DNA of 64,000 nucleotides from Bursaphelenchus xylophilus (taxonomy: Eukaryota; Nematoda; Chromadorea; Rhabditida; Aphelenchoididae): positions 12,338,001 through 12,402,000 of the forward strand of contig CAJFCV020000003.1 of the NCBI GenBank assembly GCA_904066235.2, in the 5' to 3' direction. A program made the position numbers and the translations under genes. The notes beneath the pieces were generated by a model. The model did not search any database and had not been told where the DNA came from. It saw nothing but the letters and a program-made list of their open reading frames with translations. The first letter of the stretch is position 1, and each line of letters begins with the position of its first letter. Positions 3,365-64,000 of the stretch are shown here, piece by piece.

Positions 3365-4110
3365 GCACTGCGCAACATTAATTTTGCGATATTCCCGGAA
3401 AGTTTTGCTGCACGGTGCGGATTTCGCGACTTCGGAGAGGATAACAAATTGCACTGTGCAGAGATAAAAACTGGCTGCACTGCGCAAAAAAAATGATTGC
3501 ACTGTGCAAAAGAAAAGGTTGGTTGCACTGTGCAAAGAGCCGGTTTTTTGACCGAATCGTGCAAAAGTTGCGACCTTTCCCGAAAGCTTTGCTGCACGGT
3601 GCGAATTTTGCGGAAAGTTTGGGGAGCAAACAAATTGCACTGTGCAAAAGAAAAAATTAATTGCACTGTGCACAGAGCCGGTTTTTTGACCGCACCGTGC
3701 AAATGCTGCGACATTTACTAAATGGGAAGTTTGGAAAACAAACAAATTGCACTGTGCAAAAATAAAAACTGGCTGCACTGTGCGAAAATAAGTAGTGTTT
3801 GCACTGTGCAAAAATAAAAATTGATTGCACTGTGCACAGAGCCGGTTTTTTGACCGCACCGTGCAAAAGCTGCGACATTTACGAAATGTTTTGTTGCACG
3901 GTGCGGATATCGCAGGAAGTTTGGAGAATAAACAAATTGCACTGTGCAAAAATAAAAATTGATTGCACAGTGCAAAAGATAAAAATTGCCCTTGCACTGT
4001 GCATGGAAAGTTTTGCTGCACGGTGCGGATTTCGCGACAAGTTCGGAGAAAAAACAAATTGCACTGTGCAAAGATAAAAATTCATTGCACTGTGCAAAAT
4101 TCCGAAAAAA
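3365..4110. repeat. GCAC-N-GTGC palindrome array
   Basis: About 25 copies of the palindrome, including GCACTGTGC, GCACGGTGC and GCACCGTGC, in a semi-regular pattern. A block around GAGCCGGTTTTTTGACCG recurs near 3535, 3677 and 3839, giving a loose higher-order period of about 150 bp. The spacing keeps several frames open, so frames of up to 256 codons here are artefacts. Confidence 0.85.
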
Positions 4111-4622
4111 AATCTCGAAACTTGTTTTTTCCTGACTTATGAGGGCCATAAAAAACTCGAGTATCAATTTTCAGACAGGTTACAAATTGTTTTTCGCCAA
4201 GAAATTATTTCCGGCCATTTCTATCCCCAAAACTTGGCCATTTCCACTTGAAAAAGTAAAAAATCTCAAAAATTTGGCCAAAAAATGGAAAAAAAATTAT
4301 TTATTTTTTCCAATATTGGCCATGTAAGAGACCTAATTAATTCAATTTTCATTTAAAAAAGTCCAAAATCATCGGGGCCAACTCAAAATCTCCCCGTCAA
4401 AAGTTGACTTCAAAAAATTGCGTCTTCAAAGAAAATGAATTTTCAGTCTTTGGCCACACAGGAAAAAAACGGATGAAGGGACAGTCCGACTTCGGAGAAA
4501 GGGGCCATTCTTTTGTATAAAGACCATTTTAATCGAAATTCAAACATAAAATTAACGGAAATCGAATTGCGACATCGCCACATGTGGGGTGAAAAGAGCA
4601 AAAAAGCATTTTTTTACAGTAA

Positions 4623-4700
4623 ATTACAGTATTTACTGCGATTTTTGGATCAAAATTACAGTATTTACTGCTATTTTTGGATCAAAATTACAGTAAATTC
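4623..4700. repeat. 32-bp tandem repeat, about 2.5 copies
   Basis: The unit starts ATTACAGTATTTACTGC and recurs at 4623, 4655 and 4687. It is followed by two GCAC-N-GTGC palindromes (about 4700-4742). Confidence 0.8.
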
Positions 4701-5007
4701 TGCACTGTGCAATTTTTTTTTTAATTTTTTTGCACAGTGCAAAATTTTTTTTTCACAAAAAAATTAAAAAAATCCCAATTCCCGACTCCCAAAGAGACCC
4801 GCGTCTTTTGTTGCAAAAAAATTTGCAAAATTGTTTTTTTTTTCGGTTGCGATTTCGGCTATTCTTTGGAGATGAGATCACTACGTTTATACAAACCCCA
4901 CAAACAATCCGTTTCCCAGATGTTTTGGAAAACCGAGAGCAGAGGAGCACAAGGAACACACCCTGATTTACATTCCTTGAGATAAAATAAAAATTTCAAA
5001 TTTTGCA

Positions 5008-5094
5008 TGTTAGTCTGTCGGGAAAGTAATGGGCACAATGTCGGATTGATCATCAAAGAAAAGAATGAATTGTGTCATGGTCCAAGCTGGAATT
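5008..5094. mobile_element. Family A MITE, left part only
   Basis: The left end (GTCTGTCGGGAAAGTAATG) and the internal AATTGTGT stretch are present, but the right end is missing. A family F element begins immediately after, at 5095. Confidence 0.65.
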
Positions 5095-5495
5095 GGAAAA
5101 AATTTTCTTATTTTGGCCACAACAGAGGTACTCCGCGAACTGCGCCCAAGCCTGGGCATTAAAGTTAGGAAAAAACGCTTCGACCTAGCTGGCACTGAAC
5201 TACTATAATAGTTCTATAGTTTTAAGGGTACCTACGAAGGCTATGACGACTCATTTAGTTCCATACAAAGGCAATAAGTTTAGTTCCGGGCATGTTTCAT
5301 CGTCTAAAGTGTAAAATCACAGGCTGCAGCCGTTTTTGAAAGGTAAGGTGGTACGTTAAAAAGAAGGTACCTCACTAACTAAATCCGCTGTCCGGGCATT
5401 GACAACGACGCATTGAGCGTACACGCTAAATTTGGGCTAATTCCGACCAGTTTCCGCAAAGTTTTAAGTTGTGGCCAAAATAAGGAACTTTTACC
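5095..5495 (-). mobile_element. Family F MITE, copy 2, 8-bp target duplication
   Basis: Inverted relative to copy 1 and about 401 bp long. CTGGAATT lies on both sides (5087-5094 and 5496-5503), a perfect 8-bp target duplication. The interior matches copy 1 through the whole length, including GGCTGCAGCC and the paired GGTACC sites. Confidence 0.85.
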
Positions 5496-5715
5496 CTGGA
5501 ATTGTGCCAGCAGCATGGAATCCAGAGCGTTCGTGGAGTAAGGTGTCATAATTAACATCGGCGAGACGACCTCAACTCTGTCGTGCTCCCATTAGCTCAG
5601 TGGCACTTCGGCGAGACAAATTTAACAAGGCAAAAACCACTCAAAGCCAAGAAAGGCACCGATTTTCCCAATTTCATTAATTTCATTCCGTTTACAGTAA
5701 GGGACCGGATCCAAT

Positions 5716-6398: not shown

Positions 6399-6399
6399 A

Positions 6400-7273: not shown

Positions 7274-7469
7274 TATTAGCATTCTTCACAATGTGCCTGG
7301 ACGTTTTTCTGCTTCGCACAGCAGAGAGTAGACTTTTTATCGTAGGATGCACCGTTGACAAAAGCCCTTTTTCGCTCGTGCATTTCAATTTCTGCACAAT
7401 CGGGCTACATGCACTGTGCGGTGAGAAAAAAGGTCGAAAAGGTCTACGCACTTTCTGAAACGACTAGTA
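7274..7469. mobile_element. Family D MITE, degenerate copy
   Basis: Left end TATTAGCATTCTTCACAA and right end complementary to TACTAGTCGTTTCAGAAAG. It carries one perfect GCACTGTGC (near 7410) and several broken palindromes. Confidence 0.6.
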
Positions 7470-8518: not shown

Positions 8519-8879
8519 TATAGACCATGAGGAAAGTCGCTTTTTTTGATTTTTGACGTCTGCAGTGTGCGAAAAGTCAGCGCAGCAGCCCAAAAAAGCC
8601 ATTTGCACAGTGCAAAATGAAATTTTGTTTATGCACAGTGCGTATTACCGAAATCGGTCCGATGACTTCTTCAGACAAAAAAGCGGACCTTTGCAATGCA
8701 ATGAAGGTAAAATACGTTCATTGGAAGTGCGTTTTTTAAACAATGCCAATGCATTTACCAAAAATGGAAAGTTTATTAGCGGTAAGGGATAGGGAAAATC
8801 GAAAATTGAAAAAATGATGACAATTCATGATTGTACATATATAGTAACCAAAGACGTTATATTTTCTTTAAAAAATCGC

Positions 8880-8984: not shown

Positions 8985-9404
8985 TTGTAAACTTATCCTA
9001 CTGAGAATTCCTGCAAAAATAGAAATGCCATTCCAAATGCTTCCAGCAAGCCTGCAAACCCCGAAAAGCCATGAAACTTTACACTAGCTGTGCTATAAAA
9101 AAACCGACTTTTCGAAGAAAAACGATTACAAAGTGCATGTTACAAAAAAACAGCCCCGTTCCCGAAGTCGCCTCCCCTCTTTTTTTTCTCCTTTTCGGGT
9201 TTAAATCAAAATCGACTCAAGAGTCGACCCGTTCGCCCAACGGAGAAAAAACAGAAAAAAGCGGGCTTAAAAAGCTGCAAACTTTTCGGGTTTCGCGCAC
9301 TTTTCCCGGTTCGGGGCGTTGTGGTCAGTTTCGTGTGGTTCCCGTTTTATATTTATTGTTGGATCGTTTACTTTGCAGTGGAAAGTTATGGAAATTTTTT
9401 GTGC

Positions 9405-10130
9405 ACTGTGCGGAACATTTTTTTGCACCGTGCACTGTGCAGACGAAATTTTCTTTGCACTGTGCAGAAAAAATTTTCTTTGCACTGTGCAGACGAAATT
9501 TTCTTTGCACTGTGCAGACGAAATTTTCTTTGCACTGTGCAGACCAGATTTTTTTGCACTGTGCAGACCAAATTTTTTATTGCACCGTGCAGAAAAAATT
9601 TTTTTTGCACTGTGCAGACCAAATTTTTTATTGCACTGTGCACTCAAATTTTGCGGCTGATTTTTGGCTTTTACACTGTGCAAAAAAAGCCAAGGTGCAA
9701 GCGACATTGCACTGTGCACTCAAATTTTGGGGTTGCACGGTGCGAAATGCCACAACATTTTTGACTGCACCGTGCAGATTTTTTATTTCTCTGATTACAC
9801 AGTCCAAGCAAAATTTATGAACGCACAGTGCAAAATATCGCAAAGGTTTCGATTGCACTGTGCAATTTTTAAAATGTTCTTCTGACTGCACTGTGCAATT
9901 TTAAAATTGTTTTTTTGACTGCACTGTGCAGTTTCCAATTTCTCTTTGCACTGTGCATCTTCCATTTGACCGCACAGTGCAATCTTCCCGTCGCTTTCGC
10001 ACGGTGCAAAAGTCAAAAATTGAAATTTTTGACTGCACGGTGCGGTTACAATTGTTTTGACTTTTGCACTGTGCGCTTTCTGACTTTAGCACTGTGCGTT
10101 TTCTGACTTTTCCCTGGCACAGTGCATTAA
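9405..10130. repeat. GCAC-N-GTGC palindrome array with 25-bp repeats
   Basis: About 30 palindromes. Between about 9457 and 9560 they form a tandem repeat with a 25-bp unit (GCACTGTGC at 9482, 9507 and 9532, spacer AGACGAAATTTTCTTT). From 9700 on the spacing is irregular and the palindrome variants are mixed. Confidence 0.85.
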
Positions 10131-10437
10131 TAACAATTTCTTGGAATACCCGCAAACTTTAGAACTTGTAGTTTTGCGGTCAGTAATTCGGTTAAAATCA
10201 CGGAATTCCAGTTCGTTTCGTTTTTTTTCAAAAAGGTTTTTTTCGGATCGTCTTTTCGCGGGTCTTGAAGTATTGGGATGGATATGTTTGCTGTGATCGG
10301 GCGTTTGTGTTTCGCGGGGTTTGGTTTGTGACAATGGTGAGCGTTTTGTAGTAATGCGGTTGGAATTAGGTTTGCAGGAGTTTTAATTTTTTTTTCATGA
10401 AATCTGGATTTTTAATATTTTTTGAATATATTTCTTT

Positions 10438-11120
10438 TCGCACTGTGCAGTCCGAACTTATTTGTTTGCACAGTGCAAAATATTTTTTTTTGGTGCATAA
10501 TGCAATATTCCTATTTTTTGGGTGCACAGTGCAATATTTTTTATTTTTTTTTCGCACGGTGCAGTATGAATGTTTGATTGCACAGTGCAAAAAAAATATT
10601 TTTGGGAGCACAGCGCAATATTTTTTGTTTTTTTTCCGCACGCTGCAGTCTGAATATTCGATTGCACAGAAAAACAAATTTGGGGGCAGTTTTATTTTTT
10701 TGCACAGTGCAGTCTCAAATAGTTGATTGCACAGTGCACAATTTTTCATCTTTTTTGCACCGTGCAGTCAGAAATCTTTGATTGCACGGTGCAAAGAAAT
10801 TTTTTTTGGCGCACTGTGCAGTATTTTTTATTTTTTTTTGCAAATCTCAACTAGTTGATTGCACAGTGCAAAAAAAATATCTTTGGGTGCACAGTGCAGT
10901 CTCAAATAGTTGATTGCACAGTTCAAAATTTTTCATTTTTTTCGCACAGTGCAAAAAAAATTTTTTTGAGTGCACAGTGCAGTATTTTTTTTATTTCATT
11001 TTTTTTGCACCGTGCAGTCAGAAATCTTTGATTGCACAGTGCAAAAAAGGTTTTTTGGCGCACTGTGCAATATCCTTTATTTTTTTCGCACAGTGCAAAA
11101 TTAATTTATTTTTTGCACAG
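10438..11120. repeat. GCAC-N-GTGC palindrome array
   Basis: About 25 palindromes, many in pairs with spacers such as CAGTCTCAAATAGTTGATT, repeated with small changes (10708, 10900). Includes decayed sites (GCACAGCGC, GCACAGAGC). Confidence 0.85.
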
Positions 11121-15400: not shown

Positions 15401-15454
15401 GACAAACTGCACTGTGCAAAAACAAGTTGGCGTTGCACTTAATGGTGTTTGCAC

Positions 15455-16429: not shown

Positions 16430-16715
16430 ATTTGCATTTTCACAAAGTACCTGGACATTTGTCGCGGCCCGCACCGTGCCCAAAACTCCCCGATTTTTTG
16501 CACAGTGCACTCACATTTTTTTGGTTTTGCACTGTGCATTTGAGAACTAAACGTGGAGAGCGGTCAGAGAGAAAAGCGCTTTTTGGCCATAATTTTGGCA
16601 GTTTCGTGCGGAAAGATTTGATTTTTTGTAGAAACATTATCCTTTACGGTTGAAATAGGCATGAAACTTTTCGTGCCAAAATTCGGCAAAAAGTCCTAAA
16701 TTGCACCGTGCAATT
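16430..16715. mobile_element. Family D left end with an inserted family E interior
   Basis: TTTGCATTTTCACAAAGTAC at the left resembles the family D terminus and is followed by palindromes at 16482, 16500 and 16527. From 16548 to 16700 the sequence is nearly identical to the middle of the family E element at 11850-12005 (CTAAACGTGGAGAGCGG...). A palindrome (GCACCGTGC) follows directly. The E segment has no E termini. Confidence 0.55.
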
Positions 16716-16793
16716 CAAAAGTCGCTGCGACATAAGCTTTTTTAACTATTATATAATATATCGCGCCGCAAAAAAAGTCTTCTCACCTGACTA

Positions 16794-16949
16794 TCGGTCT
16801 GTCGGGAAAATAACGGCGGATCGTCGCGCCTGGGAATCGCCGATCATCGCTTTGCGACTACAAGCCGCGGCTTGGGATTTGATGCGCGATAGCGGCGAGG
16901 CGAGACGTTTTGATGCGACGATCCGCCGTTATTTTTCCGAGAGGCATGA
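16794..16949. mobile_element. Family B MITE, first of a tandem pair
   Basis: TA at 16792-16793, left end TCGGTCTGTCGGGAAAATAA, interior GACGATCCGCCGTTATTTTT, slightly decayed right end (GAGAGGCATGA). The TA at 16950-16951 is shared with the next copy. Confidence 0.85.
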
Positions 16950-16951
16950 TA

Positions 16952-17106
16952 TCGGTCTGTCGGGAAAAAAACGGCGGATCTTCGCGCCTCGGAGTCGCTC
17001 ATCATCGCTTTGCGACTGCAAGCCGCGACTTGGGATTTGGTGCGCGATAGCGGCGAGGCGAGACATTTTGCTGCGACGATCCGCCGTTATTTTTCCGACA
17101 GACTGA
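16952..17106. mobile_element. Family B MITE, second of a tandem pair
   Basis: Same orientation as the first copy and separated from it only by TA. The right end is intact (TTTTCCGACAGACTGA) and followed by TA at 17107-17108. Confidence 0.85.
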
Positions 17107-17108
17107 TA

Positions 17109-17296
17109 GTCCGTTCTTAAAGTCGCTGGAATGTTTTCGGCGACATGCACTCCGCGAAACCGAAAGTTCACTTTGCACTGTGCAATTTTTGGCTTTTTGC
17201 ACAGTGCAATAGGCTTTTTGGGGCTGTCGCTCGCACCCTGAGTTTTCTTGCACAGTGCACATCGACAAAATCATTCCAGCGACTTTACGAACGGAC
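17109..17296. mobile_element. Family C MITE carrying palindromes
   Basis: Inverted ends GTCCGTTCTTAAAGTCGC and the complement of GTCCGTTCGTAAAGTCGC match over about 42 bp. TGATA flanks both sides (17104-17108 and 17297-17301), though the left copy is also the end of the preceding family B element. The interior holds GCAC-N-GTGC palindromes at 17174, 17200 and 17250. Confidence 0.7.
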
Positions 17297-21505: not shown

Positions 21506-22031
<526 letters not shown>

Positions 22032-25939: not shown

Positions 25940-26000
25940 TCTGCACAGTGCGGATTAAAAAATAGGCTAAAAATGGACTTGCACTGTGCAGATTTTAGTT
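25940..26000. repeat. Isolated GCAC-N-GTGC pair
   Basis: GCACAGTGC near 25943 and GCACTGTGC near 25981, with no array around them. Confidence 0.8.
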
Positions 26001-36230: not shown

Positions 36231-36369
36231 GCCTGAACTTGTACACTCCGTAGTTTGTGAACTTGGATCATCCGATTAGATGATGCCAAATTAGGTAATT
36301 AAAACCCAAGATTGTTGCCCAGTTGGACTTTTAAGCCTGAGGGTAAATAAACCCGGGATTTAGCTTTTG

Positions 36370-40324: not shown

Positions 40325-41175
40325 TGCAATGTGCGGTTTTATCATTTTTTCTCGCCGCACTGTGCAGTTCAATATTTTTAGATTTTTGCACTGTGCATTT
40401 TTTCTTTTGCTTTTGCACTGTGCAATTTGACTTTTTTTGTACATGCACAGTGCAAGTTTGATTTTTCTCTCTTTCGCACGGTGCAATTCAATTCAACGTT
40501 TTTGGTTTTTGCACAGTGCGTTTTTGTGGGTTGTGTTTTCTTCTTTTTGTCGCTTGCATCGCAAAATCCACTCAAATCTTTTGCACAGTGCATTTCATTT
40601 TTTGGTTTTTTCGCACCGTGCATTGTTTCAGTGATTTTTGCACTGTGCATTCTTCTCCATCCGAACCTTTGCACAGTGCATTTCATTTCTTGGTTTTTTG
40701 CACTGTGCAATCAACCTTGTTTTGTCGCTTGCATCGCAAAATTCACTCAGATTTTTTGCACCGTGCAATCCAAAGGTTTTGGGCTCCTTGCACAGTGCAT
40801 TTCATTTCTTGGTTTGTTGCACTGTGCAATAACCTTGTTTTGTCGCTCGCATCGCAAAATTCCGTCAGTTTGTTTTCGCACAGTGCAATTCAATTTTTTA
40901 TCTTTTCGCACAGTGCAATCCATCGTTTCTGCTTTTTGCACAGTGCATTTCATTTCATTGGTTTTTGCACGGTGCGACCAACCTTGTTTTTCTTTTTTTG
41001 TCGCTTGCATCGCAAAATCCACTCAAAAAATTTTTTGCACCGTGCATTCAACTCTTTTTCTTTTCGCACCGTGCATTCAAAGGGTTTTTGGCTGCTGCAC
41101 CGTGCATTTCAACGTTTTTTCTCCTTGAAAAAATGTGCAGTCTCTCTCATCTTCTTCCTTGCACTGTGCGTTGCC
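40325..41175. repeat. GCAC-N-GTGC palindrome array with a conserved linker
   Basis: About 28 palindromes. The linker TGTCGCTTGCATCGCAAAAT occurs at 40547, 40722, 40839 (TGTCGCTCGCATCGCAAAAT) and 40999, marking copied blocks of variable length. All + frames across it are artefacts. Confidence 0.88.
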
Positions 41176-42434: not shown

Positions 42435-43640
42435 CGCACTGTGCATTTTTTTTGTTGAAAATTTTGCACTGTGCAATTTTTTTCAACTTTTCTCTGCACT
42501 GTGCATTTTTTCCATTTTTTATTTTTTGCACTATGCAATTTTTTTGATTTCTATTTTTTTTGCACTGTGCATTTACCATTTTTGTTTTTTGCACGGTGCA
42601 GATTTCGCGACATCGTCAATTTTGCCTTGCACTGTGCATTTTTTGTTTTTGAAAATTTTGCACTGTGCAATTTCTTTAACTTTTCTTTGCACTGTGCAAA
42701 CCCCTATTTTTCTTCCGCACTGTGCAAAGTTCATTTTCCTTTTTTTGCACTGTGCAAGTTTCGCGACACGGTTGCTTTCCGATTTGCACCGTGCAAACCC
42801 CCATTTTTCTTCCGCACTGTGCAAAGTTCTTTTTTTTTGTTTTTGCACTGTGCAAGTTTTGCGACAACGATCTTCTTTTCTTTGCAACGTGCAAACCCCT
42901 ATTTTTCTTCCGCACTGTGCAAGCTTCATTTTTCTTTGTTTTTGCACTGTGCAGGTTCTGCGACAAGAATCTTTGTTCCTTGCACTGTGCAAACCCCCAG
43001 TTTTCTTCCGCACTGTGCAAAGTTCATTTTTTTTGTTTTTGCACTGTGCAAGTTTTGCGACATGGTTGCTTTCCGATTTGCAACGTGCAAACCCCTATTT
43101 TTCTTCCGCACTGTGCAAGCTTCATTTTTCTTTGTTTTTGCACTGTGCAGGTTCTGCGACAAGAATCTTTGTTCCTTGCACTGTGCAAACCCCCATTTTT
43201 CTTCCGCACTGTGCAAAGTTCATTTTTTTTTTGTTTTTGCACTGTGCAAGTTCCGCGACACGGTTGCTTTCCGATTTGCACCGTGCAAACCCCATTTTTC
43301 TTCCGCACTGTGCAAAGTTCATTTTTTTTTGTTTTTGCACTGTGCAAGTTTCGCGGCACGGTTGCTTTCCGATTTGCACTGTGCAAACCCCCATTTTTCT
43401 TCCGCACTGTGCAAAGTTCATTTTTTTTGTTTTTGCACTGTGCAAGTTTCGCGACAAGGATCTCCTTTTCCTTGCACTGTGCAAGAGCCTTATTTTTCTT
43501 CCGCACTGTGCAAAGTTTATTTTTTTGTTTTTGCACTGTGCAAGTTTTGCGACAAGAATCTCTTTTTCTTTGCACCGTGCAAACCCCCATTTTTCTTCCG
43601 CACCGTGCACAACTCATCTGAAATCCCTCCGCACTGTGCG
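42435..43640. repeat. About 98-bp tandem repeat built on palindromes
   Basis: The densest array in the window, with about 36 palindromes. GTGCAAACCCC recurs near 42697, 42793, 42891, 42989, 43087, 43186, 43284 and 43383, then (GTGCAAGAGCC) 43480 and 43579: ten units of 96-99 bp. Each unit has three palindromes in fixed order, with linkers ATTTTTCTTCC, a T-rich stretch, and GCGACA(A/C)GG. Adjacent units resemble every second unit in places (42891-43085 and 43087-43282), suggesting a 196-bp dimer was duplicated. Confidence 0.92.
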
Positions 43641-45139: not shown

Positions 45140-45615
45140 TCAATTGCACTGTGCAGTCATAAAAATGTTTTTTGGATTGCACAGTGCAGTCTTAAAAGAT
45201 TTTTTCAATTGCACAGTGCAGTCAATAAACACGTTTTTGAATCGCACAGTGCAGTCATGGTTTCTTTTCAATCGCACTGTGCAGTCATAAAAATGTGTTT
45301 GGGATTGCACAGTGCGTTGTGATTTTTTATTCGAATTGCACTGTGCAGTTATAAAAATTGTTTTTGGATTGCACAGTGCGGTACAATTTTGTATTGATTG
45401 CACTGTGCAGTCTGGTTTTTTTTTTTCAATTGCAATATGCGGCCGTAATTATTTTTGGATTGCACCGTGCAGTCATGAAAGATTTTTTTGATTGCACAGT
45501 GCAGTCTAAAAAATTTTTCAGTTGCACAGTGCAGTCAATCCCACAGTGCAGTCAAGGTTTTTTTCAGTTGCACTGTGCAGTCATAAAAAAATTTTTTGAC
45601 TGCACCTAGCGGTCC
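45140..45615. repeat. GCAC-N-GTGC palindrome array
   Basis: About 16 palindromes, most with CAGTC after them and GATTG or CAATTG before them. Confidence 0.87.
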
Positions 45616-47644: not shown

Positions 47645-48400
47645 ATTGAACAGTGCAAAGTTTTTTTTTTTGGCCGCACTGTGCAAAATATTTTGGATTG
47701 CACAGTGCAAAATGTATTTGGATGCACTGTGCAAAATGTTTTTGCCGATTGCACAGTGCAACATTTTTTGTTGATTGCACTGTGCAAGATATTTTTGATT
47801 GCACAGTGCGAATTTTTGTTGGCTGCACTGTGCAAAACATTTTGGACTGCACTGTGCAAAATGTTTTTGGACGCACTGTGCAAATCTTTTTGCCGATTGC
47901 ACAGTGCAAAATTTTGTTGGCTGCACTGTGCGCATTGTTTCCGATTGCACCGTGCAAAGTTTTTTGTTGATTGCACTGTGCAAGATATTTTTGATTGCAC
48001 AGTGCGAAAATTTCTTGACTGCACTGTGCAAAGTGTTTTCGATTGCACCGTGCGAATTTTCGTGACTGCACTGTGCAAGATATTTGTGATTGCACAGTGT
48101 AAAATTTTGTTGGCTGCACTGTGCAAAATGTTTTCGATTGCACCGTGCAAAGCTCTTTGTTGACTGCACTGTGCAAAATATTTGTGATTGCACAGTGCGA
48201 AGTTTTATTGACTGCACTGTGCGTAATTTTTTGGCTTGCACCGTGCAATTTTTCGTCGATTGCACAGTGCGGAACTTTCTTGATTGCATTGTGCGAAATC
48301 TTTTTGATTGCACAGTGCAAAAATTTCTTGTCTGCACCGTGCAAAATATTTTGGACCGCACCGTGCAAAAATTTTTTTGATTGCACTGTGCAAAGTTTGT
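47645..48400. repeat. GCAC-N-GTGC palindrome array, short spacing
   Basis: About 27 palindromes with an average spacing of about 28 bp. Linkers alternate between forms such as AAAATATTTTTGATT and AATTTTGTTGGC. All six frames are partly open, giving spurious proteins of up to 286 codons. Confidence 0.9.
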
Positions 48401-49764: not shown

Positions 49765-50220
49765 CGCACTGTGCCACGCCAATTTTAGCCTATATTTCGT
49801 ATTGCACAGTGCAAAAAACGAAAATTTTTATGTTAAATTTTTGCACTGTGCAGACCTCAAAACAACAAAAAAAATATATTTTTCCGCACTGTGCAGTGCC
49901 AATTTTAGCCTATTTTTTGTACTGCACAGTGCAAAAAACGAAAATTTTTATATTAAATTTTTGCACTGTGCAGATTTCGAAACAACAAAAAAAAATATTT
50001 TTTCGCACTGTGCAACGCCAATTTTAGCCTATTTTTGGCGTTGCACAGTGCAAAAAATGAAAATTTTTATATTACATTTTTGCACTGTGCAGACTTCGAA
50101 ACAACAAAAAAATAACGTTTTCCCGCACTGTGCAATGCCAATTTAAGCTTTTTTGGGCATTGCACAGTGCGAAATTTGAAAAAAAAAAAAAAAAAAAATT
50201 GAGTTTTTGCACAGTGCAAA
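49765..50220. repeat. 120-bp tandem repeat built on palindromes
   Basis: GCACAGTGCAAAAAACGAAA at 49804 recurs at 49924 and (as GCACAGTGCAAAAAATGAAA) at 50044, spacing 120. Each unit has three palindromes and the linkers GACCTCAAAACAACAAAAA-type and GCCAATTTTAGCCTA. The array ends in an A run (50171-50188) and two more palindromes. Confidence 0.9.
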
Positions 50221-50601: not shown

Positions 50602-53600
50602 GTGAGATTAAGATTTTTTTTATTTTTTGATAGTTTTAGAGGCATTTTGAGAGATGGAAAATATGATTTTTTTGAGGTGGAATAAAAGTATTTTTTTATT
50701 ATTTTCGAAAAAAATTTTTAAATAAATTTTATTTTTTTTTATTTTTTGCGATGCTAAGATCGCAAAAAATAAAAAAATGGATTTTGGTGTGTGAAAAAAA
50801 AACAAAAAAAAATCAGAAAAATCAAAATTAAAAAAATATATTATTTGCTGATTTTTATTTTTTTTAGATTTTTTTTGATTTTAAAAAAAGTTTTTTCAGT
50901 GGATTTTACGCTCCAAAAAATTTTTTTTAGGGAATTTACAGTCAAAAAATTGTTATTTTTAAAAAAATTTATATATTTTTTTTCTTGAACTTTCCAATTT
51001 TAAATTTATTATTTTTGGAATTTCGGATTTTTCATTTTTTTTTATTTTTAAAAATTTTTCCTTTCAAAAAAAAATTATTTTAAAGAACCCCAAATTTATT
51101 AATTTTATTAATTTATAAACCTTTCACCCCATACTTCAGCCCGACCCTTCTGGCGACACATTGTTTTCGCCGCGCCCGCCGCTTTTCGCCCTCTTTCTAG
51201 TCCGGTCCAAGCAAGCTGGACCCGCCCGCGCCGACGCCCCGAAAGCAGTCCAAGCCGCGCCGCTCCACTCCAGCCACGACGACGATTGCCCAACCGCCGG
51301 TGGAGGCCTGGCCCAGGCCGGGCACACAGTCCTACCCCAATAGTGGGGCCAACTCCTTCGATGAGGCCAGCTCGTCGCTCTCGTTGCCGAATGCGTCGCC
51401 CGATCTGGCCAACTTGCATGATCTCCACATTCAAAGCCCCCAAGAGCAGGAGAGCGGGGGAATTGAGACGGTGTCGAGTTGTGGGTGAGTTGGATTTTTT
51501 GCATGGTGCAGTTTTGGGAATTACAATTTTTTTTATTATTTTTTTTTATTTTGCAATTTTTAAAATTTTTCAGTTTTTGCACAGTGCAGATTTCATTTTT
51601 TTTGCACGGTGCAGTTTTGGGAGTTACAATTTTTTTTGTTATTTTTTTTTATTTTGAAATTTTTAAAATTTCTCACTTCTTGCACAGTGCACATTTTTGT
51701 GATTTTTCGCACAGTGCAGATTTAATAAAATTTTTTTTGCACAGTGCAGATTTAATAAAATTTTTTTTGCACGGTGCAAATTTTTGTGTTTCTTTGCACG
51801 GTGCGTTTTTTTGTAATTTTTTGCACAGTGCAAGTTTTAAATTTTTTTGCACAGTACCGTGCTGATTTAATAAAATTTTTTTTGCACAGTGCAGATTTCA
51901 TTTTTTTTGCACGGTGCAAATTTTATATTTTTTTGCACGGTGCAAATTTTTGTATCCCTTTGCACAGTGCAAGTTTTATATTTTTTGCACAGTGCAAATT
52001 TTTGATTTTTTTTGCACTGTGCAGTTTCATTTTTTTGCACCGTGCAAGCTTCTTCATTTTTCGCACAGTGCAAATTTTATTATTCCTTTGCACTGTGCGA
52101 TTTTTGTAATTTTTTGCACAGTGTAAATTTTATTTTTTTTCGCACTGTGCAAAAAATTTCGAAATTCATTTTGTACCATACGGTCGTTCAAAAATAAAAA
52201 AACCCGAAAAACTAGTAATCTCTGAACCCACCCCTGCAGGGTTTACAATTTCGAACCACTTGTCACCACCTTTTTCCAACTTTTTCAATGCTTTTTAAAA
52301 CTTTTTTGGTCCAATATTACACTTGACCAACTAACCAGTGCAATCTAACTACAATTGCATTAGTTAACACATCAAGTTCTACTTGCGAAGTTCAAGTGCA
52401 ATTCTAAAATAGCTTTTGTAGTTGTTCCTTTATGTTTTTTCTCTTTTTGGCATTACAATTTTCATTTTCAGCGTCAAACATGTAAAAGAAGAGAGGCCGG
52501 TGGTCTGCCAGGCGAGGAGTTCGTCGTTTTGTCATACAATCATGCCTTCGGGATCACGTAAGTTTCTTTGTTTACTATTTTTAGCAATTTTTTGGGGTTT
52601 CGAGGGGGTTTTGAAGGATTTCCCTGATTTTCAGGGTTTTCGTGGTGGTACCTGAAATTGATGTCAATGAAAGCGGATTTTTGAAAAGTTTTTGAAAAAA
52701 ACAAATTATTATTTATTTCTAGAGGGCCAAACCTGCAATCTTTTTTTATTTCGGATGGTTTTAGGAACGTTTCCCTGATTTTCAGGGTTTTCGTGGTGTG
52801 ACCTAAAATTGATGTCAATGAATGCTGAATTTTGTGTGGGTTTTGAAAAAACAAGTTATATTTACGCCTGGAAAGCGAAACCTACGATTTTTTTATCATT
52901 TCGGATGGTTTTGGGACGTTTCCCTGATTTTCAGGGTTTTCGTGGTGGGACCCAAAAATTGTTGTGAAAAACGTCACATTTTAGAAACATGAAATAGTCA
53001 AGTTGTTGTAGGTTCTTTTTAGAGTGAATAGCATTTTTAGGTTGTTGGATTTCAAGAGGTTTTCGTGGTGGGACCAAAAAATATTAAATTTTTATTTTTT
53101 CTTACTTTTTTTAATAATATTTTTTTTGTAAATCATTGACTTTTCAGGTGGATGTCTAACCAAACGAATATGGCAGTCAGAGCAGCGAGTCTCGGTGAAC
53201 CAAGAGATTGTCAACCGAGAGATCGACTTGTACATGGAAATTGAGCGCAAAATGTCGGACGATGTGGAGTCAAAAACTGATGTTCTGGCTGCAGAAGTGA
53301 TCCGAAAAGTCCCTCCAACAAGGTCTCATAGCATGGTTGACAGCGTGAGTTGATAAAATTTTCTCAGTTTGAGGTATTTTGTTTCGCACTGTGCAATTAT
53401 TTCTAGTATTTTTTCGCACTGTGCGTGAGAAATGATTAAATTTTTTTATGAATAGTGTATACGAAGGATGCCTTTACGTATTTTACAATCAAAATAGGCG
53501 ATAGTTTTTTGTCAAAATTTCAAAAAAAAAACGAGTTTTTCGCCTTGCACAGTGCATCAAAAATTTTCATTTTTTGCACAGTGCAGTTTTAAAATTTTGT

Positions 53601-55096
53601 TGCTGCACGGTGCAGAAGAGATAAGAAGGTGAAAATTTTGTTCTTTCAGGTCATAAAACTACAGTATTTTCTGACAATACCATAAAAATTTTTATTTTGC
53701 TATTTGCACTGTGCAATTTTCAAATTTCTCTTGTTGCACCGTGCAGTCTCAAAATTTTGTTGCTGCACAGTGGGGAAGAGAGAAGAAGGCAAAAATTTTG
53801 ATTTGTCGGGTACTAAACAACAGTATCCTCTGAAAATTTTATAAAAAATCTTATTTTGCTGTTTGCACCGCGCAAACTTTCAAATTTTTCTCTCTGCACT
53901 GTGCGAAAAGCTCAAAAAATCGGAAATTGGTTTTTTGGACCCCAAAATCATCGCACATGCTTCTTCTTCTCCCATAATCTCTATTTCAATTTTTTCAGCC
54001 CTACTCCCAAGCCGGTCCATCGTCGTTTTCGCCGACGGCCGCGGATTACGAAGAGAATAGCTTCCAAAAAGACATTGCGGCGAGGATTCGAGGTGGGTTC
54101 ATTATGCATTCAGTTGAAGGGTGGTTTTGAGGGATTATGTAAAATTTCGCAGAGCACTCGAAAATTTTAACTAGCTGTCACGAGTGGGAAAATGAGAGAT
54201 AATAACGGGGTTTATGCTAATTTTTTGAAAATTTCGAAATTTCAAAAACTTGAGTGATTTATTGAATATAAATTTTTTATGAATTATTAATGATTTTTAT
54301 ATATTAAAATTAGTCAAAATGACAATTTTTTTTATAAAATTCCAAAAAAAATATTTTATGCAAATTTTTAAATTTGCATAAATTATAATTTTTCTTTGCT
54401 AAAATAGCCAAATAGGCCTGCTAAAAATATTTTTGAGCTGTTTTAACGACATTTTCAAAAAATTTTAAAATTTCAAAATTATGCAAATTTCACAAAAATT
54501 ATCATAATTCAGTATAAAACATCAATTTACAAGTCTTTCCGCACGGAATTCTGTTCTTTTTGAACTGAAATCAGCGACATGCACTGTGCGAAAACAAAAG
54601 TTTTTTTTGCACTGTGCAATTTCTGGGTTTTTGCACCGTGCATTTGGCTTTTTTTGGGCTGACTTTTTTTGCACAGTGCAAGCGCTAAAAAATAGTCCGG
54701 CGACTTTCAGGAAAGTCTTGTATTCAATTCTAATGACATTTTCTTCTTTCTGCAGTCCCTAAAATTTCAAAAAATCTCAAAAAAAAAAAAAAACAGTTTC
54801 AAAAAATTCCAAAAATTCTAAACCCGATAAATCGCTGAATCACATCGAAAATTTGAATTCATTCCACTCAAAATCAACTCGAAATGTCGGGGCGTTTAAT
54901 CCCTCCGCCGCCAAAAAGAGAAAAGTGGGCCGCATTCCGGGAAGTGTTGATCCCGAATTCGGCGGGTTTAAATTCCATTTGGCTGTCATGTACAGCAACA
55001 GTGCGTTGTACAGCATGCTGGAGCGGCGGTTTTTGGCGGCACTGAGTGGTGAGGAGGAGGTGTCGGCGAGCTCGAGTGATTCGAATATTCTTCTAG
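50509..55096 (+). CDS. Six-exon gene, unknown nuclear-type protein (partial)
   Basis: Exons: 50509-50601, 51201-51484, 52472-52557, 53148-53344, 53999-54092, 54797-55096. End phases (0, 2, 1, 0, 1, 1) match the next exon each time, which is the main support. Donors GTGAGA, GTGAGT, GTAAGT, GTGAGT, GTGGGT, GTAGGT; acceptors TTTCTAG, TTTTCAG (three times) and a weak AAACAG. About 350 residues so far, with no stop reached, so the 3' end is missing. The protein is rich in Ser/Pro (disordered), has a charged, helix-like stretch VSVNQEIVNREIDLYMEIER in exon 4, and a basic KKRKV in exon 6 that resembles a classical nuclear localisation signal. Exon 6 ends with a more structured-looking block (FKFHLAVMYSNSALYSMLER). 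I do not recognise the family. The start in exon 1 is a guess: upstream exons may exist. Confidence 0.6.
51201..51484 (+). CDS. Exon 2, Ser/Pro-rich
   Basis: Follows CTCTTTCTAG. Begins SGPSKLDPPAPTPRKQSKPR and continues through SFDEASSSLSLPNASPDLAN to ETVSSCG. GC-rich compared with its introns. A second frame is also open, but only this one joins exon 3 in phase. Confidence 0.65.
51505..52155. repeat. GCAC-N-GTGC palindrome array in intron 2
   Basis: About 22 palindromes with T-rich linkers (mostly TTTTATATTTTTT-type). It ends some 300 bp before exon 3. Confidence 0.87.
52472..52557 (+). CDS. Exon 3
   Basis: Flanked by CATTTTCAG and GTAAGTTT. Encodes VKHVKEERPVVCQARSSSFC then HTIMPSGS; phase 1 at its end. 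Confidence 0.65.
52615..53065. repeat. About 150-bp tandem repeat in intron 3
   Basis: TCCCTGATTTTCAGGG followed by TTTTCGTGGTG recurs at 52621, 52772 and 52921. The core CCCTGA-TTT-TCAGGG can form a small hairpin, and it includes TTTTCAGG, an acceptor-like sequence. Confidence 0.85.
53148..53344 (+). CDS. Exon 4, charged helix-like segment
   Basis: Flanked by ACTTTTCAG and GTGAGTTG. Encodes 65 codons beginning GCLTKRIWQSEQRVSV, with an amphipathic, charged run to ...KTDVLAAEVIRKVPPTR. Codon choice and composition are unlike the flanking introns, and it is the best-looking exon of the gene. Confidence 0.75.
53380..53910. repeat. GCAC-N-GTGC palindromes in intron 4
   Basis: About ten sites. 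A block of about 157-160 bp (AGAGA(T)AAGAAGG(T/C) after a palindrome, at 53614 and 53773) is repeated. One site is decayed to GCACAGTGG. Confidence 0.8.
53999..54092 (+). CDS. Exon 5
   Basis: Flanked by ATTTTTTCAG and GTGGGTTC. Encodes PYSQAGPSSFSPTAADYEEN then SFQKDIAARIR. Confidence 0.65.
54535..54725. mobile_element. Possible palindrome-bearing MITE in intron 5
   Basis: ACAAGTCTTTCC at the left and GGAAAGTCTTGT at the right are inverted with one mismatch or so, and four palindromes lie between. Resembles family C in having GCGACATGCAC just inside the left end. Confidence 0.5.
54797..55096 (+). CDS. Exon 6, with KKRKV basic motif
   Basis: The acceptor AAACAG (54796) keeps phase but is weak. 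The better acceptor TTCTTTCTGCAG (ending 54755) is out of phase because of the A run at 54779-54793, where a base-count error or a real frameshift is possible. The 54883-55096 part, from NVGAFNPSAAKKRKVGRIPG onward, is convincing. Confidence 0.5.
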
Positions 55097-55462: not shown

Positions 55463-55732
55463 TACTATCATAATATTCCATTCCCAGTCTGATGTAGGCC
55501 ACTACAAATGAAAACCCACTCCCTGATATTGATTATGCATTCGTAAATAACTATTTTTTGCATACACCCACAAGTTTCATCGCAATTTCGAAGTTTAGCC
55601 AGAGTTTTGTCGAACATTGCGCTACAGTAGGCTGTTGTTTATTTTGGACAATGTTTATCAGGTCCTGTAATGTGCCATGAAAATTTTATTTGGTTTTGCA
55701 CAGTGCAGTTTCGAAAATGAGCAATTAGATAC

Positions 55733-55925
55733 TAGTCGCGGAAAAAAGTCCTGGGAATTTCTCGCGGCCGTCGCGCTCCGAAAAGTTGATTTGTCGCTGC
55801 GAAACGCGGGAATCGCGCGCGACAATAAGGCAAAATCAACAAAATTGCACTGTGCAAAAGCACTTTTCGGGTTCATGCACAGTGCAGAGTCGCAGAAAAT
55901 TCCCAGGACCTTTTTCCGCGACTAG
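55733..55925. mobile_element. Family G MITE, TA duplication
   Basis: Inverted ends CTAGTCGCGGAAAAAAGTCC and complement, continuing through TGGGAATTT; TA at 55731-55732 and 55926-55927. The interior contains two palindromes (55846 and 55877). 193 bp. Confidence 0.8.
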
Positions 55926-56049
55926 TAGTAATACTCTAATAAATTTTGATTTCTTGAGTCTTCATACGACATGTGGAGGACACTCTTTAATCCTCATATC
56001 CTAATATAGCCAATTTTTCCTTGTAGGGCGAAAAAAACTGTATTTCTTT

Positions 56050-56255
56050 TATTGCACTGTGCAGTTTTTGAATTTGCTATTGCACTGTGCAAAGCATCTT
56101 CAAACTTCAAAATTTCGCTTTCATCAATTTTATGAAACCCCAGTTTTTCAAGAAACCAAATTTAGGACCCTCAGGGTATCCCCGCACCGTGCAAACATCT
56201 CTTTTATTCTCTGCACAGTGCAATTTTCCCAATTTTTGTCTGCACAGTGCAAACG
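56050..56255. repeat. Scattered GCAC-N-GTGC palindromes
   Basis: Five sites between 56054 and 56250. Confidence 0.8.
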
Positions 56256-56539
56256 TCGCAAATCGAAAGGTGAAGAAAGCATTATGACTTAGTCTAAAGT
56301 ATCATCCGGTAAAAGCACCCTTCCCATGATACAAATTAGTACAGCAATTAGAGAACTGCGTTATTGTGACGCTCCGAATTCTTTTCATTTCCAACAAATC
56401 TGATATCCCCCTTTTTGAGGCGATTAGATGGGGATGGTTAATCCGGCAAACGCGTGGAAGTTGTACGAAAAATATCTTGTTTCATAATGCCGATTACGGG
56501 TCTTTTGTGTGGAGAAAACAGTCTTAAAGGGTATTTCAT

Positions 56540-57295
56540 CTTTCGCACTGTGCAGTGGAACGTTTTCAGGAAATTGGTTTTTGCACGGTGCGATGGACAC
56601 TTTGTGTCGCGAAGGTATTTTTACTGCACTGTGCAATGTTTTCCAATTTTTGCACAGTGCAGAAAACGAATTTTTTCGTTCGCACTGTGCAATAAATTTG
56701 TTTCTAGGTTTTGCACAGTGCAGACAACAAATTTTTCTTTCGCACTGTGCAATGACTTTTTTTTAGATTTTTGCACAGTGCAGACAACATTTTTTTCCTT
56801 TGCACAGTGCGATAAGATGTCTTGGCGATTTTGCACTGTGCGAGGGACTTTTTGTGTCGCAAACATCTTTTTTCTGCACTGTGCGATGATTTCAACTTTT
56901 CGCACTGTGCAATGACTTTTTTTAGAGTTTCGCACTGTGCAGACAACAATTTTTTTCTTTTGCACTGTGCGATAAGATGTCTTGGCGATTTTGCACCGTG
57001 CGATGGACTTTTTGTGTCGCAAACATCTTTTTTCTGCACTGTGCGATGATTTCAACTTTTCGCACTGTGCAATGACTTTTTTTAGAGTTTGCACAGTGCA
57101 GACAACGAATTTTTTCTTTTGCACAGTGCAATAAGATGTCTTGGCGATTTTGCACTGTGCGATGGGCTCTTTGTGTCGCAAACATCTTTTTTCTGCACTG
57201 TGCAATGATTTTAACTTTGCGCACTGTGCAATGACTTTTTTCTGCGTTTCGCACCGTGCTGACAACACATTTTTTCTTTTGCACAGTGCAACCCC
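56540..57295. repeat. 160-bp tandem repeat built on palindromes
   Basis: GATAAGATGTCTTGGCGATT occurs at 56811 and 56971, and ATAAGATGTCTTGGCGATT at 57131, spacing 160. Each unit has about six palindromes and the linker GTGTCGCAAACATC. 56540-56800 is a looser start of the array. Confidence 0.9.
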
Positions 57296-58464: not shown

Positions 58465-59215
58465 GAGGTTGCACGGTGCAATTTAAAATCTAGAGGATTT
58501 TGCACGGTGCGGCGGGAAAATCTTGATTTTTCATAGTCTAAGCGACAATTTTAAGGAATGTAAAGTGTCTTAAAAAATTTTTATGTCTTTACTTCTATCG
58601 TAGATTTCATTTTTTACAGGTTTTTCCAGTGCACTATGCGAAAAATATGTTTTTATTTTTTGCACGGTGCGGCGGAAAAATCTTGATTTTTCAGGATGCA
58701 TGGGACAATTTTGAAGAATACAAAGTGTCTATAATTTTTTTAAGTGTTCACTTTTACTACAGACATCATTTTTTTACGAAATTTTTTATTGCACGGTGCG
58801 AAAAATTATTTTGAATTTCTTGCACCGTGCGGAGGAAAAAATGTTGATTTTTCATGATTCAAGCAAATATTTTGAGGAATGTAAAGGGTCTTGAAAAATC
58901 TTTAAGTCTTTACTTCTACCGTAGATAGCATTTTTTTGCAAAATTTTTCCTTGCACTGTGCGAAAAACATTTTTTAATTTTTGCACAGTGCAAGAGAAAG
59001 TTTTGAAAATTTTGCACCGTGCGGCGGAAAAATCTAGATTTTTCACGATGCAAGCGACAATTTTGAGGACTTTGAATTATCCTAGACTTTTTTTGAGCTT
59101 TTATTTCTCCCGTAGACACATTTTTTACAATTTTTTCCACCGCACGGTGCGAAAAAATTTCTTAATTTTTTGCACAGTGCGGAGTTCAAAACTCAAAATC
59201 TTGCACGGTGCAAAC
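58465..59215. repeat. About 160-bp tandem repeat with palindromes
   Basis: GCAC(G/C)GTGCGG(C/A)GG followed by AAAAATCTTGATTTTTCA recurs at 58502, 58662, 58822 and, after an insertion, 59014. CpG-containing palindromes (GCACGGTGC, GCACCGTGC) dominate here, unlike most arrays. Confidence 0.85.
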
Positions 59216-60769: not shown

Positions 60770-61290
60770 GCACAGTGCAATGATCACTTCAGGCTATTGC
60801 ACGGGGCAGAAGCTACATTTCTTGCGCAGTATCCGAAGAAAACACTTGATTACACCTCGCCAAGGATATTTTATCGCAGAGTGCAAGAATTTGTCGCTTG
60901 CGCACAGTGCAATATCAGTCTGTCGGGAAAAAAACGGCGGATCGTCGCAGCGAAATGTCTCGCCTCGCCGCTATCGCGCACCAAATCCCAAGTCGCGGCT
61001 TGCAGTCGCAAAGCGATGATGAGCGACTCCGAGGCGCGACGATCCGCCGTTTTTTTCCCGACAGACCGATAGTCCAAATTGTTTTTTGCACAGTGCAGCG
61101 GGAAGATTTGGCCGCACAGTGCGGAAGGCTAGATGTATCGCACTGTGCGTTTTCTGACATAGTGTACTGACATATATTTTTACATCTGCACCGTTTTTAC
61201 AGTAAAAAACGCTTTCCGCACGGTGCAATTCTCTTACAAAAGTTCGCACGGTGCAATAAACCCGACAAACTACTGCACAGTGCAGCCCCA
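60770..61290. repeat. GCAC-N-GTGC palindromes around a family B MITE
   Basis: About ten sites, some decayed (GCACGGGGC). The family B element at 60915-61069 sits between the palindromes at 60903 and 61088. Confidence 0.8.
60915..61069. mobile_element. Family B MITE inserted into a palindrome array
   Basis: TA at 60913-60914 and 61070-61071, left end TCAGTCTGTCGGGAAAAAAA, right end TTTTTTCCCGACAGACCGA. The interior is nearly identical to that at 8380-8518. Confidence 0.9.
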
Positions 61291-61299
61291 ACCCCACAG

Positions 61300-62840
61300 T
61301 TTTTTCGACATTTTTGGGCTTTCCGTAGGTGTGAGTATCACAAATATAGTTTATTGACGTCGCTTTGCGTTGTTTCGGTTACGTATTTGCTCCCACGGGG
61401 GCTAAAATTGTAAAATTTTCTCATCGGTTGTAATTGGAACTCTCTTAATTGGAAACTGTAAGTTCTCCGCAAAAAGTGTGTTTCTGAAATTCGAAGAAAG
61501 ATATCGTAGTTTAATCTTCATCTACAAAAACGAGTTTACGAAAAAATCGCCTTGTTTGCCGCTACAATAAAATGATTTTTGCCCTCAGGCGATGTTTTCA
61601 ATTTTTCGACGACAAATGTCAGCGTTGTTCGTGGCACCAAGTTTTGATGATTTCACTCACTTTTTCGCCGCATTTTGCGACAAATCCCCTCCTCCGCACT
61701 GTGCAATGACAAAGAATATCCTCCGCACAGTGCAGCCTTCTAATCGTCTTGTCGGCTTGCTCTACCATCCAAAAATTTTTACAACTTGCCGCAGACGCCG
61801 AAAATAGAATTTTTATTCTTCTTGAGTCCTCGAAATCGCGAGATAAACCCGAACTAATCATCCGCTAATTAGCCAAATGTTCTGCTTCTGGAATTATCGG
61901 CTCAAGGCGGGCTTAAATATCTTGGTATGGGCATGCCTGAGAGATTTGGTGGGCATATTTCATTTTGTGAACATAGTTGTTATGCCTTTAGATAGCTACT
62001 ATCGCGCTGGAAACGCTTAGAAATACTGTTTAAAATTTTCGGATTTTTCTGGGTTGAGGCTTTTCAGAGTGATGTTACAGTACCCGCAGTGACTCTAGGG
62101 CTTTAAATTTTTCACTGAAATTTCTGCATAGAGTCTAGTTAGTCGCTATATATCGATTTTTGACGTCAGCTCCCAACTGCATAGGATTAAACGCCATAAA
62201 ACCTGCAATCTTTTTGTTTTCAACTTTTTGTAGGTCTTCACATTGCACAGTGCAAAAATAGTACTTCCACTCGCTGTAATTCTTCAAAATTTCGAGTGTA
62301 GAACTGCCATAGTATCTACTTTTAGATACCACAATTGATTTTTAATTTTGTCCCCTCAGGGCATGAAAAATGAGCGACCTAGGAAAAGTCATCGGTTTTC
62401 GCCCAAATTTTTTTCTTTTTAATTTCCAATTGTCGCGCTGTTATAAACACCCAAAATCCGCCGTTAGCAATGACGCTAGGCAACCCTAATTCCCCCCAAT
62501 TACCTCCAACTCCCCATGCACACGCCACCACACATATTAAACTACCTCTTTGCCCCCATCTACCGGTCGCATTTCCGCTCTCAATTATCATTTTTTTTCG
62601 GCCCACGCTCCTGACGTCGACCTCACGCTCGATTTGAAATTCCCTCTCAACGAATTTCGGAAGCCCCAAAACTTTCATCCTCGAATTTTAATATTCCTTT
62701 GCTTCCGTGGACTGGGAGGGATACGCCGCGTTTTGGGCTTAAAAATAAGGAAGTGAAAATGAGCCGGACTTTTTTTTTAATCGCACTGTCTGGAATGTGT
62801 TTGGGGAGAAAATTTGAAAAGAGAATTTCATTTTCTGTTG
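61300..62840. other. Interval without a recognisable gene
   Basis: Three isolated palindromes (61697, 61727 and 62244) but no array, transposon or exon chain. Confidence 0.4.
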
Positions 62841-62849
62841 TTGGAAATT

Positions 62850-63315
62850 TTGCACAGTGCGGTGGGTTTTGAAGATTTTTGGATTTGCACTGTGCAATTG
62901 AATTTTTTTTGACTGCACAGTGCAGTAGAATTTCTTGCACTGTGCAGTTGATTTTTTTGACTGCACAGTGCGAACTTTTCCGAATTTTTTTGCACAGTGC
63001 GACAAACTCAACTATTGCACAGTGCAATAAATTTTTTTGCACAGTGCAAAAAAACAAAGTTGAAAACTGCACAGTGCAGTAAATTTTCTTGCACTGTGCA
63101 GTTGATTTTTTTTGACTGCACAGTGCATTAAGATTTTTGTCGCGCGATGCGAACATTTTTTTTTTGCACTGTGCGGTAAAAAATGATTTTCTGCACGGTG
63201 CAGTCAAACTGCTTCGACTGCACAGTGCGGTAAATTTCTTTGGCACAGTGCGAACTTTTCCGAAATTTTTCGCACAGTGCGGTAAAAAATGATTTTCTGC
63301 ACCGTGCGAAAATAA
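62850..63315. repeat. GCAC-N-GTGC palindrome array
   Basis: About 20 sites, many flanked as TGACTGCAC and GTGCAGTNAA, i.e. with longer symmetrical flanks than elsewhere. Confidence 0.87.
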
Positions 63316-63319
63316 AAAA

Positions 63320-63770
63320 AAAATTTTCGCCCTGTACTCCAGCTCCCAGAACGCTTTCCCAACCCTCCCAAAATAGCAAATGCATACCAAATAAGAAGCG
63401 ATGAATATCCCGTCTAAATTTGCATATTCCATTCGAATTCTCGATTTGCATGACGCCAAAAGGTGTCAATTTTCTTTGCGTCGGGGGTCGGATTACATTT
63501 ATCGGGAAACTCGCTTGTTTTTGTACCATAAAGAGAAGAAAGAAAAGGACGGGGGCGTCGAAAATTCATTCTATTTTGGTGAAGAATCTTTTGGTCAAGG
63601 GGCACTCCTTGATTTCCATATTAAGAATACGATTTCTCCGCTATCTGAGCGGTCTTTTATTTCTTTTACAACCGTGTTATCAGACCAGGACGTTTGCCTA
63701 CACTCAAATTCATATCAATTTAGACCTCAGACCAGAGGAAATTAAAGGTTTTATTGATAAAATTTTTTGA
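63320..63770. other. Array-free interval, no gene recognised
   Basis: Two + frames of about 115 codons overlap (63401-63745 and 63420-63770). Neither has a known motif, so coding is undecided. Confidence 0.3.
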
Positions 63771-63774
63771 TTTT

Positions 63775-64000
63775 TTGCACTGTGCAAAATTTTTTTGATT
63801 GCACTGTGCAAAAAATTTTTTTACTGCACAGTGCAATTTTTTTCACTGCACTGTGCAAAAAATTTTTCTAACCGCACCGTGCAAAATTCTTTCTCACTGC
63901 ACTGTGCGAGAAATTTTTTGAATGCACGGTGCAAAAAATTTTTGGCTGCACTGTGCAAAAAATTTTTTTCTGCACTGTGCGAAACTTTTTTTGAGATTGC
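63775..64000. repeat. GCAC-N-GTGC palindrome array, runs off the window
   Basis: Nine sites at 20-30 bp spacing with linkers AAAAAATTTTT-type; continues past the end. Confidence 0.87.

Follow-up and report, generated by a model that had tools for sequence, protein, structure and literature searches.

An odd-length palindrome conserved within divergent arrays on all six chromosomes of Bursaphelenchus xylophilus, a probable platform for a putative dimeric chromosomal protein

Despot-Slade et al. reportedly described, in 2021, a 19-bp box in the CenH3-associated tandem repeats of Meloidogyne. PMC9673304 presents it as a short box that stays conserved across the short, divergent tandem arrays of a nematode parasitic on plants, and which its authors interpret as probably bound by a protein. 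Boxes of this kind, short and conserved amid nematode satellites that diverge, are already known from this genus. PMC3694981 and PMC9673304 also describe a 17-bp CENP-B box-like motif (Box 1), shared by eleven named satellites, that keeps about 88% identity in satellites 36-74% alike and occurs in higher-order repeats. In Caenorhabditis elegans, a six-chromosome nematode, the pairing-centre motifs of HIM-8 and ZIM-1, -2 and -3 are, according to PMC9071541, 12-base sequences much repeated distally, at one end of each chromosome, and bound by C2H2 zinc-finger proteins that serve one or two chromosomes each. We report here a palindrome, GCACNGTGC, that is repeated in arrays with changing linkers in a 64,000-base stretch of B. 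xylophilus (the window: bases 12,338,001-12,402,000 of contig C3, which is 12,730,644 long, about 330-390 kb from the contig end) and throughout the genome.

Like the Meloidogyne 19-bp box, the palindrome is a conserved element in tandem arrays that diverge elsewhere. It is set apart from that box, by description rather than by a comparison of letters, as a strict palindrome of odd length whose centre is free, with a spacing of about 30 bp and a bias towards the outer regions of the chromosomes. In comparison to Box 1, which likewise lies in higher-order repeats, it is shorter and occurs once per about 30 bp among hundreds of linkers. Baculovirus homologous regions also combine a repeated palindromic core with variable linkers and are bound by a dimer; they are viral, with a longer core and few copies, and we claim no relation.

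The window holds 434 perfect copies, 423 of which take the form YGCACNGTGCR. An order-3 Markov control gave a mean of 13.8 and a maximum of 20 in 40 simulations, and three motifs in succession were found 223 times against none across 100 shuffles; the excess for which a preliminary description of this DNA had proposed Markov and shuffled controls is thereby borne out. An order-5 model trained on the window memorises the motif (mean 294, 20 simulations) and is useless as a control. The assembly (8 contigs, of which six measure 12.1-15.1 Mb, and 78,253,340 bases in all) contains 41,616 copies against 178 of the reversed pattern; if one mismatch is allowed, the counts rise to 60,270 and 8,238. 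About 8,060 of the 18,654 one-mismatch words are background, leaving an excess of about 10,600 beside the intact copies. There are 64 such words in the window, where the genome-wide reversed control predicts about 7 (a Markov expectation of about 63 is inflated by the motif's own presence), and the remaining 57 or so may be decayed copies.

The form of the element is strict. Whereas a one-base spacer occurs 434 times in the window, spacers of 0 and of 2 to 8 bases occur 2, 1, 1, 2, 0, 3, 1 and 5 times, and the central base itself is free (T 192, A 146, C 52, G 44). Single-step variants of GCAC that are still palindromic number 7 against 434; it is the sequence, and not palindromy as such, that is preserved, and a hairpin or cruciform was rejected on the same rarity. 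Read outward, position 5 of the half-site is a purine in 98-99% of copies on each sampled contig (C1-C6 and C8), a uniformity that would allow a single recogniser to serve all. The flank preferences are alike on C1-C6 (72 to 531 copies per contig) and, symmetrised over both strands, the context reads as a T-rich left flank, YGCACNGTGCR and an A-rich right flank.

To compare core and linker, homologous array copies were aligned and their mismatches sorted by class, with a core counted if intact in either copy. Two earlier alignment sets required an intact query copy and hence make the arms look too well conserved; the either-copy counts are preferred. The main set, from the window and nine loci (L002-L005, L007 and L008 were set aside as overlapping or near copies), comprised 341 alignments, 306 of which had at least 40 linker columns and were kept. 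For pairs at 2-20% linker divergence (up to 58 alignments in 31 groups, drawn from the window and eight loci), divergence in the eight arm bases is 0.27 times that in the linkers (95% bootstrap 0.21-0.34), and divergence at the free centre is 2.1 times the linker value (1.5-2.8); positions 5 and 6 stand, in the main set, at 0.92 and 1.05 times. A second set consisted of 18 loci picked for tandemness, 16 of which yielded pairs below 20% divergence. The arms are less divergent than the linkers in 15 of these 16, and the remaining locus, L048, has zero differences. At linker divergences of 0.049, 0.081, 0.123 and 0.171 the arms of the second set stand at 0.012, 0.030, 0.048 and 0.045, and the centre at 0.117, 0.199, 0.300 and 0.328. 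The arms plateau at 0.030-0.048 as the linkers go from 0.08 to 0.29, where the arms are at about 0.03, and we read this plateau as constraint plus a small standing share of broken copies. Selection on the core had been suggested from the first reading of the window, to be judged by arms and linkers aligned by descent; overall, the comparison favours it, or something equivalent to it.

The fast centre may be explained by linkers that are slowed by their composition, with the centre itself near the neutral rate, although a mutation hotspot at a bound site is a further conceivable cause. Palindrome inversion was rejected as the source of the variable centre, as exchanges of A with T and of C with G account for 37-47% of the mismatches at the centre (four classes) against about 49% expected from the base frequencies there, which is no excess. 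Short-tract gene conversion of the core was rejected also: a tract spanning the two arms would be expected to homogenise the centre, yet the centre outpaces the linkers.

The same data bear on plain drift of one recently expanded minisatellite, which we regard as highly improbable. Drift would account for the tandem structure, the local duplication and the arms that match the linkers in the youngest pairs of the main set. Core and linker diverging alike, as a plain minisatellite would have it, is confined to the two sparsest and youngest bins and fails overall; moreover, 535 of 1,135 linkers (window and fetched loci) are mutually dissimilar by a 6-mer test and copies lie on all six chromosomes, which also disfavours the single recent satellite expansion considered in the preliminary description.

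The linkers are themselves far from arbitrary. Across the 535 non-redundant linkers, the distance from one motif centre to the next has its lower limit near 20 bp and its main peak at 24-33; it drops sharply at 34, is low over 34-36 and peaks again at 37-43. This second peak lies about one helical turn beyond the first and suggests that the sites may prefer the same face of the DNA, and the spacing statistic was reached by 1 of 500 smoothed controls. Between motifs the sequence runs from A-rich (A-tract) to T-rich (T-tract), and the ratio of observed to expected TpA is 0.19 in 1,098 linkers against 0.61 in 67 GC-matched background windows, these composition figures being taken over linkers that were not de-duplicated. 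A constant palindrome amid differing linkers, as first described, therefore holds, with the amendment that the linkers are constrained in composition (A-tract to T-tract, TpA-poor). An AA/TT rhythm, with maxima at about 10, 21, 32-33 and 42 bp, is found in the non-array DNA of the window and of L009-L051, and the arrays are without it. The periodic An/Tn clusters of C. elegans have a comparable rhythm; that the arrays are such clusters was rejected, since the rhythm of about 10.6 bp belongs to the background.

An odd palindrome whose centre is free typically points to a homodimer touching two half-sites, and we consider it probable that the arrays are sites for a putative dimeric chromosomal protein and are kept by purifying selection rather than by some other conserving process. 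Each array would be a platform for one such sequence-specific DNA-binding protein, its site, YGCAC-N-GTGCR, offering two identical half-sites around one base pair that would be left uncontacted, and the sites would be set mostly every 24-33 bp on TpA-poor A-tract/T-tract DNA. With about 41,600 sites, gathered chiefly in the outer parts of all six chromosomes, the protein would coat array-rich segments and confer on them a chromosome-level property; such coating is suggested by the minimum spacing, by the A/T tracts and by how many arrays there are. The arrays would grow and turn over in the manner of satellites, by tandem duplication, while copies with a broken half-site would be lost or out-competed. 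By location, anchoring or silencing of the chromosome arms is the most likely cellular role, followed by meiotic pairing or synapsis and by a holocentromere.

Several observations weigh against this interpretation. To suppose purifying selection at every one of about 41,600 redundant sites is to ask a great deal, and the protein is itself putative. The spacing statistic is nearly flat (0.18-0.19) over periods of 9-13.5 bp and does not single out the helical repeat. The TpA contrast is weaker in 200-base chunks of joined linkers (median 0.39 against 0.64, where the joints add TpA), and part of the deficit is a consequence of the A-to-T polarity. Where divergence is lowest, in two bins with sparse data, the arms are about as divergent as the linkers (2/54 against 7/161 and 9/127 against 38/492), and they are at least as divergent in 4 of the 30 groups of the main set with arm data. 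The centre is faster than the linkers in 12 of 16 loci, in one of them marginally, slower in three (L044, L045 and L046) and unchanged in one. Fifteen of 19 pre-set 10-kb blocks lack any copy, the other four containing 36, 3, 2 and 60. Finally, nematode chromosome arms generally accumulate repeats, and location alone is weak evidence.

The main rival to a protein platform is selfish, motif-driven amplification, in which the motif would be the recognition or exchange site of the amplifying process (a recombinase, a transposase or exchange between copies) and would have no host function. This we think unlikely, though a serious contender, and we take the same view of its corollary, in which the excess of intact copies would arise because broken ones are neither copied nor used as end points of deletions. 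The arrays are clearly satellites with higher-order repeats, and among 860 pairs of similar linkers the next linker is similar in 598 and clearly different in 178. Satellite junctions in Meloidogyne are reported (PMC3694981) to be located in conserved motifs such as Box 1; here alignment end points peak in mid-linker and not beside the motif, which lends no support, although the test is weak because any two copies share the motif. Nor do the 700-base flanks of 22 clusters have shared edges, and a selfish satellite alone leaves unexplained the A-to-T polarity of the linkers, their loss of TpA and an arm divergence that does not rise with that of the linkers. Transposase-binding subterminal repeats, one of the roles first proposed, were not supported by the same flanks, taken from 22 of the 31 groups in the window. 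Apart from overlapping neighbours, what these 22 share is a dispersed repeat, matching over 22-165 bp at distances that vary, and three other matches of 34-50 bp.

The genome was sampled with patterns of the motif plus a rare flank, and 277 listed matches, merged within 10 kb, gave 195 positions. Two of the patterns give the best 100 of 119 and the best 100 of 123 matches, which makes the counts for C6 and for the end of C5 too low. The outer fifths, 40% of chromosome length, hold 135 of the 195 positions and the central 60% holds 60. The sampled positions in the left fifth, middle and right fifth of each chromosome are as follows.

C1: 9, 19 and 19
C2: 4, 9 and 16
C3: 7, 9 and 20
C4: 12, 7 and 5
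C5: 8, 8 and 19 (end under-sampled)
C6: 8, 8 and 8 (under-sampled)

Distal blocks are rich in sampled positions on each of the six chromosomes, and both ends are enriched on most. A telomere-like TTAGGC/GCCTAA array lies at the start of C1. On the unplaced 14.5-kb contig C8, 10 kb (L026) contain 60 motif copies; some arrays are unplaced in the assembly.

A holocentromere component, a special case of the protein platform in which a conserved box in divergent tandem repeats would mark CenH3 chromatin as in Meloidogyne, is to our mind improbable. In its favour is the same anatomy of short conserved box and divergent short arrays (PMC9673304). Such a component should run along the whole chromosome; the motif is indeed on all six, yet with the outer bias and the empty blocks described above.

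The comparison with Caenorhabditis pairing centres, drawn in the preliminary description, survives as an analogy. The three features of the C. elegans type that were tested are absent here. Location at one end is replaced by enrichment at both ends of most chromosomes, with the central positions already noted; in place of chromosome-specific motifs there is a single palindrome on all chromosomes and both arms, with the same core (by construction) and flank preferences on C1-C6. The C. elegans HIM-8 motif, TTGGTCAGTGCA, has 6 matches against 2 for its reversed control and is not notably enriched.

Sites of meiotic pairing or synapsis initiation, in a lineage without Dmc1, would be another special case of the protein platform, and one that we hold possible but unlikely. 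PMC8455136 reports that Dmc1, Mnd1 and Hop2 are lost in all sequenced Clade IV nematodes, to which B. xylophilus is assigned (PMC9071541), and that HIM-8/ZIM homologs occur in many Clade V genomes. Here, Rad51-family matches occur at one site of the genome only (L202, C5:5.064-5.066 Mb), where the open frame is nearer to RAD51 (E 2e-55) than to DMC1 (1e-37). Mnd1 and TBPIP had no match in the assembly, with weak controls (Mnd1 in 1 of 14 control genomes, below cut-off, and TBPIP in 0 of 14). The richness of distal blocks on every chromosome also speaks for pairing; a single motif for all chromosomes and enrichment of both arms on most speak against it, and synapsis driven by pairing centres is perhaps restricted to Caenorhabditis (PMC8455136). 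Slightly more doubtful is the specific form in which a single dimeric protein and one universal palindrome would replace the chromosome-specific zinc-finger motifs in a lineage reported to have lost Dmc1, each site being conserved through meiotic drive between arrays with more and with fewer intact sites.

Grouping with a 500-base gap gives 31 motif groups in the window, 22 of them with at least 6 copies (range 6-43). The groups begin at 2198, and a large one is first reached at 3410. They are listed below without strand, from motif counts and, where a period or spacing is given, repeat analysis.

2198..2227, 2 motif copies
3410..4095, array, 20 copies
4702..4740, 2 copies
7411..7419, 1 copy
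8605..8641, 2 copies
9403..11096, array, 43 copies
15409..15417, 1 copy
16471..17258, sparse group, 7 copies
21583..21971, 2 copies
25943..25989, 2 copies
27020..27532, array, 15 copies, about 153-bp higher-order repeat
28617..29211, array, 16 copies
29766..30067, array, 8 copies
31441..31740, array, 8 copies
32765..33577, array, 22 copies, 222-bp higher-order repeat
34229..34543, array, 6 copies
35269..36855, array, 27 copies, about 160-bp higher-order repeat
37452..38232, array, 16 copies, 190-bp higher-order repeat
39367..41169, array, 36 copies
42436..43639, array, 35 copies, 98-bp higher-order repeat x9.5
45146..45578, array, 13 copies
47676..48391, array, 28 copies, about 24-bp spacing
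49766..50217, array, 12 copies, 120-bp higher-order repeat
51579..52150, array, 18 copies
53386..53904, array, 8 copies
54581..54679, 4 copies
55698..57289, array, 32 copies, 160-bp higher-order repeat
58471..59211, array, 11 copies, about 160-bp higher-order repeat
60770..61733, sparse group, 10 copies
62245..62253, 1 copy
62852..63980, array, 26 copies, mostly 22-30-bp spacing, nearly reaching the window end

A higher-order period of about 160 bp is common to separate arrays with different linkers (35477-36069, 53574-53891, 56738-57289 and 58498-58991) and is perhaps a chromatin unit. Open frames of up to 457 codons run over the arrays (42307-43680 and others), several frames being open simultaneously because TpA is scarce. 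A coding repeat was rejected, since several frames open together are what scarce TpA leads one to expect; the long frames are probably a by-product of that scarcity, and to annotate them as genes, an error to which they are prone, would be unwarranted without other evidence. When a 288-codon frame was compared with the protein collection, none of 897 candidates was a hit at E 0.001, and Pfam searches of 10 frames selected from 219 gave one with a match.

Between two arrays lies a Mariner/Mos1-type transposase fragment (48817-49557, + strand; HTH_48 E 4e-6, Transposase_1 below cut-off). A repeat of about 158 bp that is not built from the motif is found at 8360-8523, 16791-17108, 55291-55464 and 60904-61074, in tandem at 16792-17098 and dispersed elsewhere, its copies being 81-97% alike among the matches listed. 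A dispersed repeat of about 400 bp, 91-94% alike, lies in both orientations at 1759-2156, 5093-5497 and 19116-19516, and a perfect GA microsatellite of 134 bases at 21685-21818. Searches of the window for tRNAs and for Rfam families at gathering cut-offs returned nothing, and the COX1 family had no match in the assembly.

Motif triples also occur in viral records (31 stretches, of which 30 hold a single triple and one holds two) and in prokaryote records (at least 119 stretches; the best 80 of 119 mostly single, with a maximum of three), and from these tables alone we take them as chance. A literature search with the motif string gave no nematode-genome paper by title among the matches listed. 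The literature searched, with subscription papers largely outside it, offered no strict odd palindrome in such numbers whose arms are measurably constrained, whose centre is free and whose linkers are poor in TpA.

The arrays may matter for two questions, how homologs pair in Clade IV nematodes if Dmc1 is lacking, as reported, and what organises their chromosome arms. A single palindrome in about 41,600 copies, conserved relative to its linkers and present on six chromosomes, would provide both a ready bait for the putative protein and a ready probe for microscopy.

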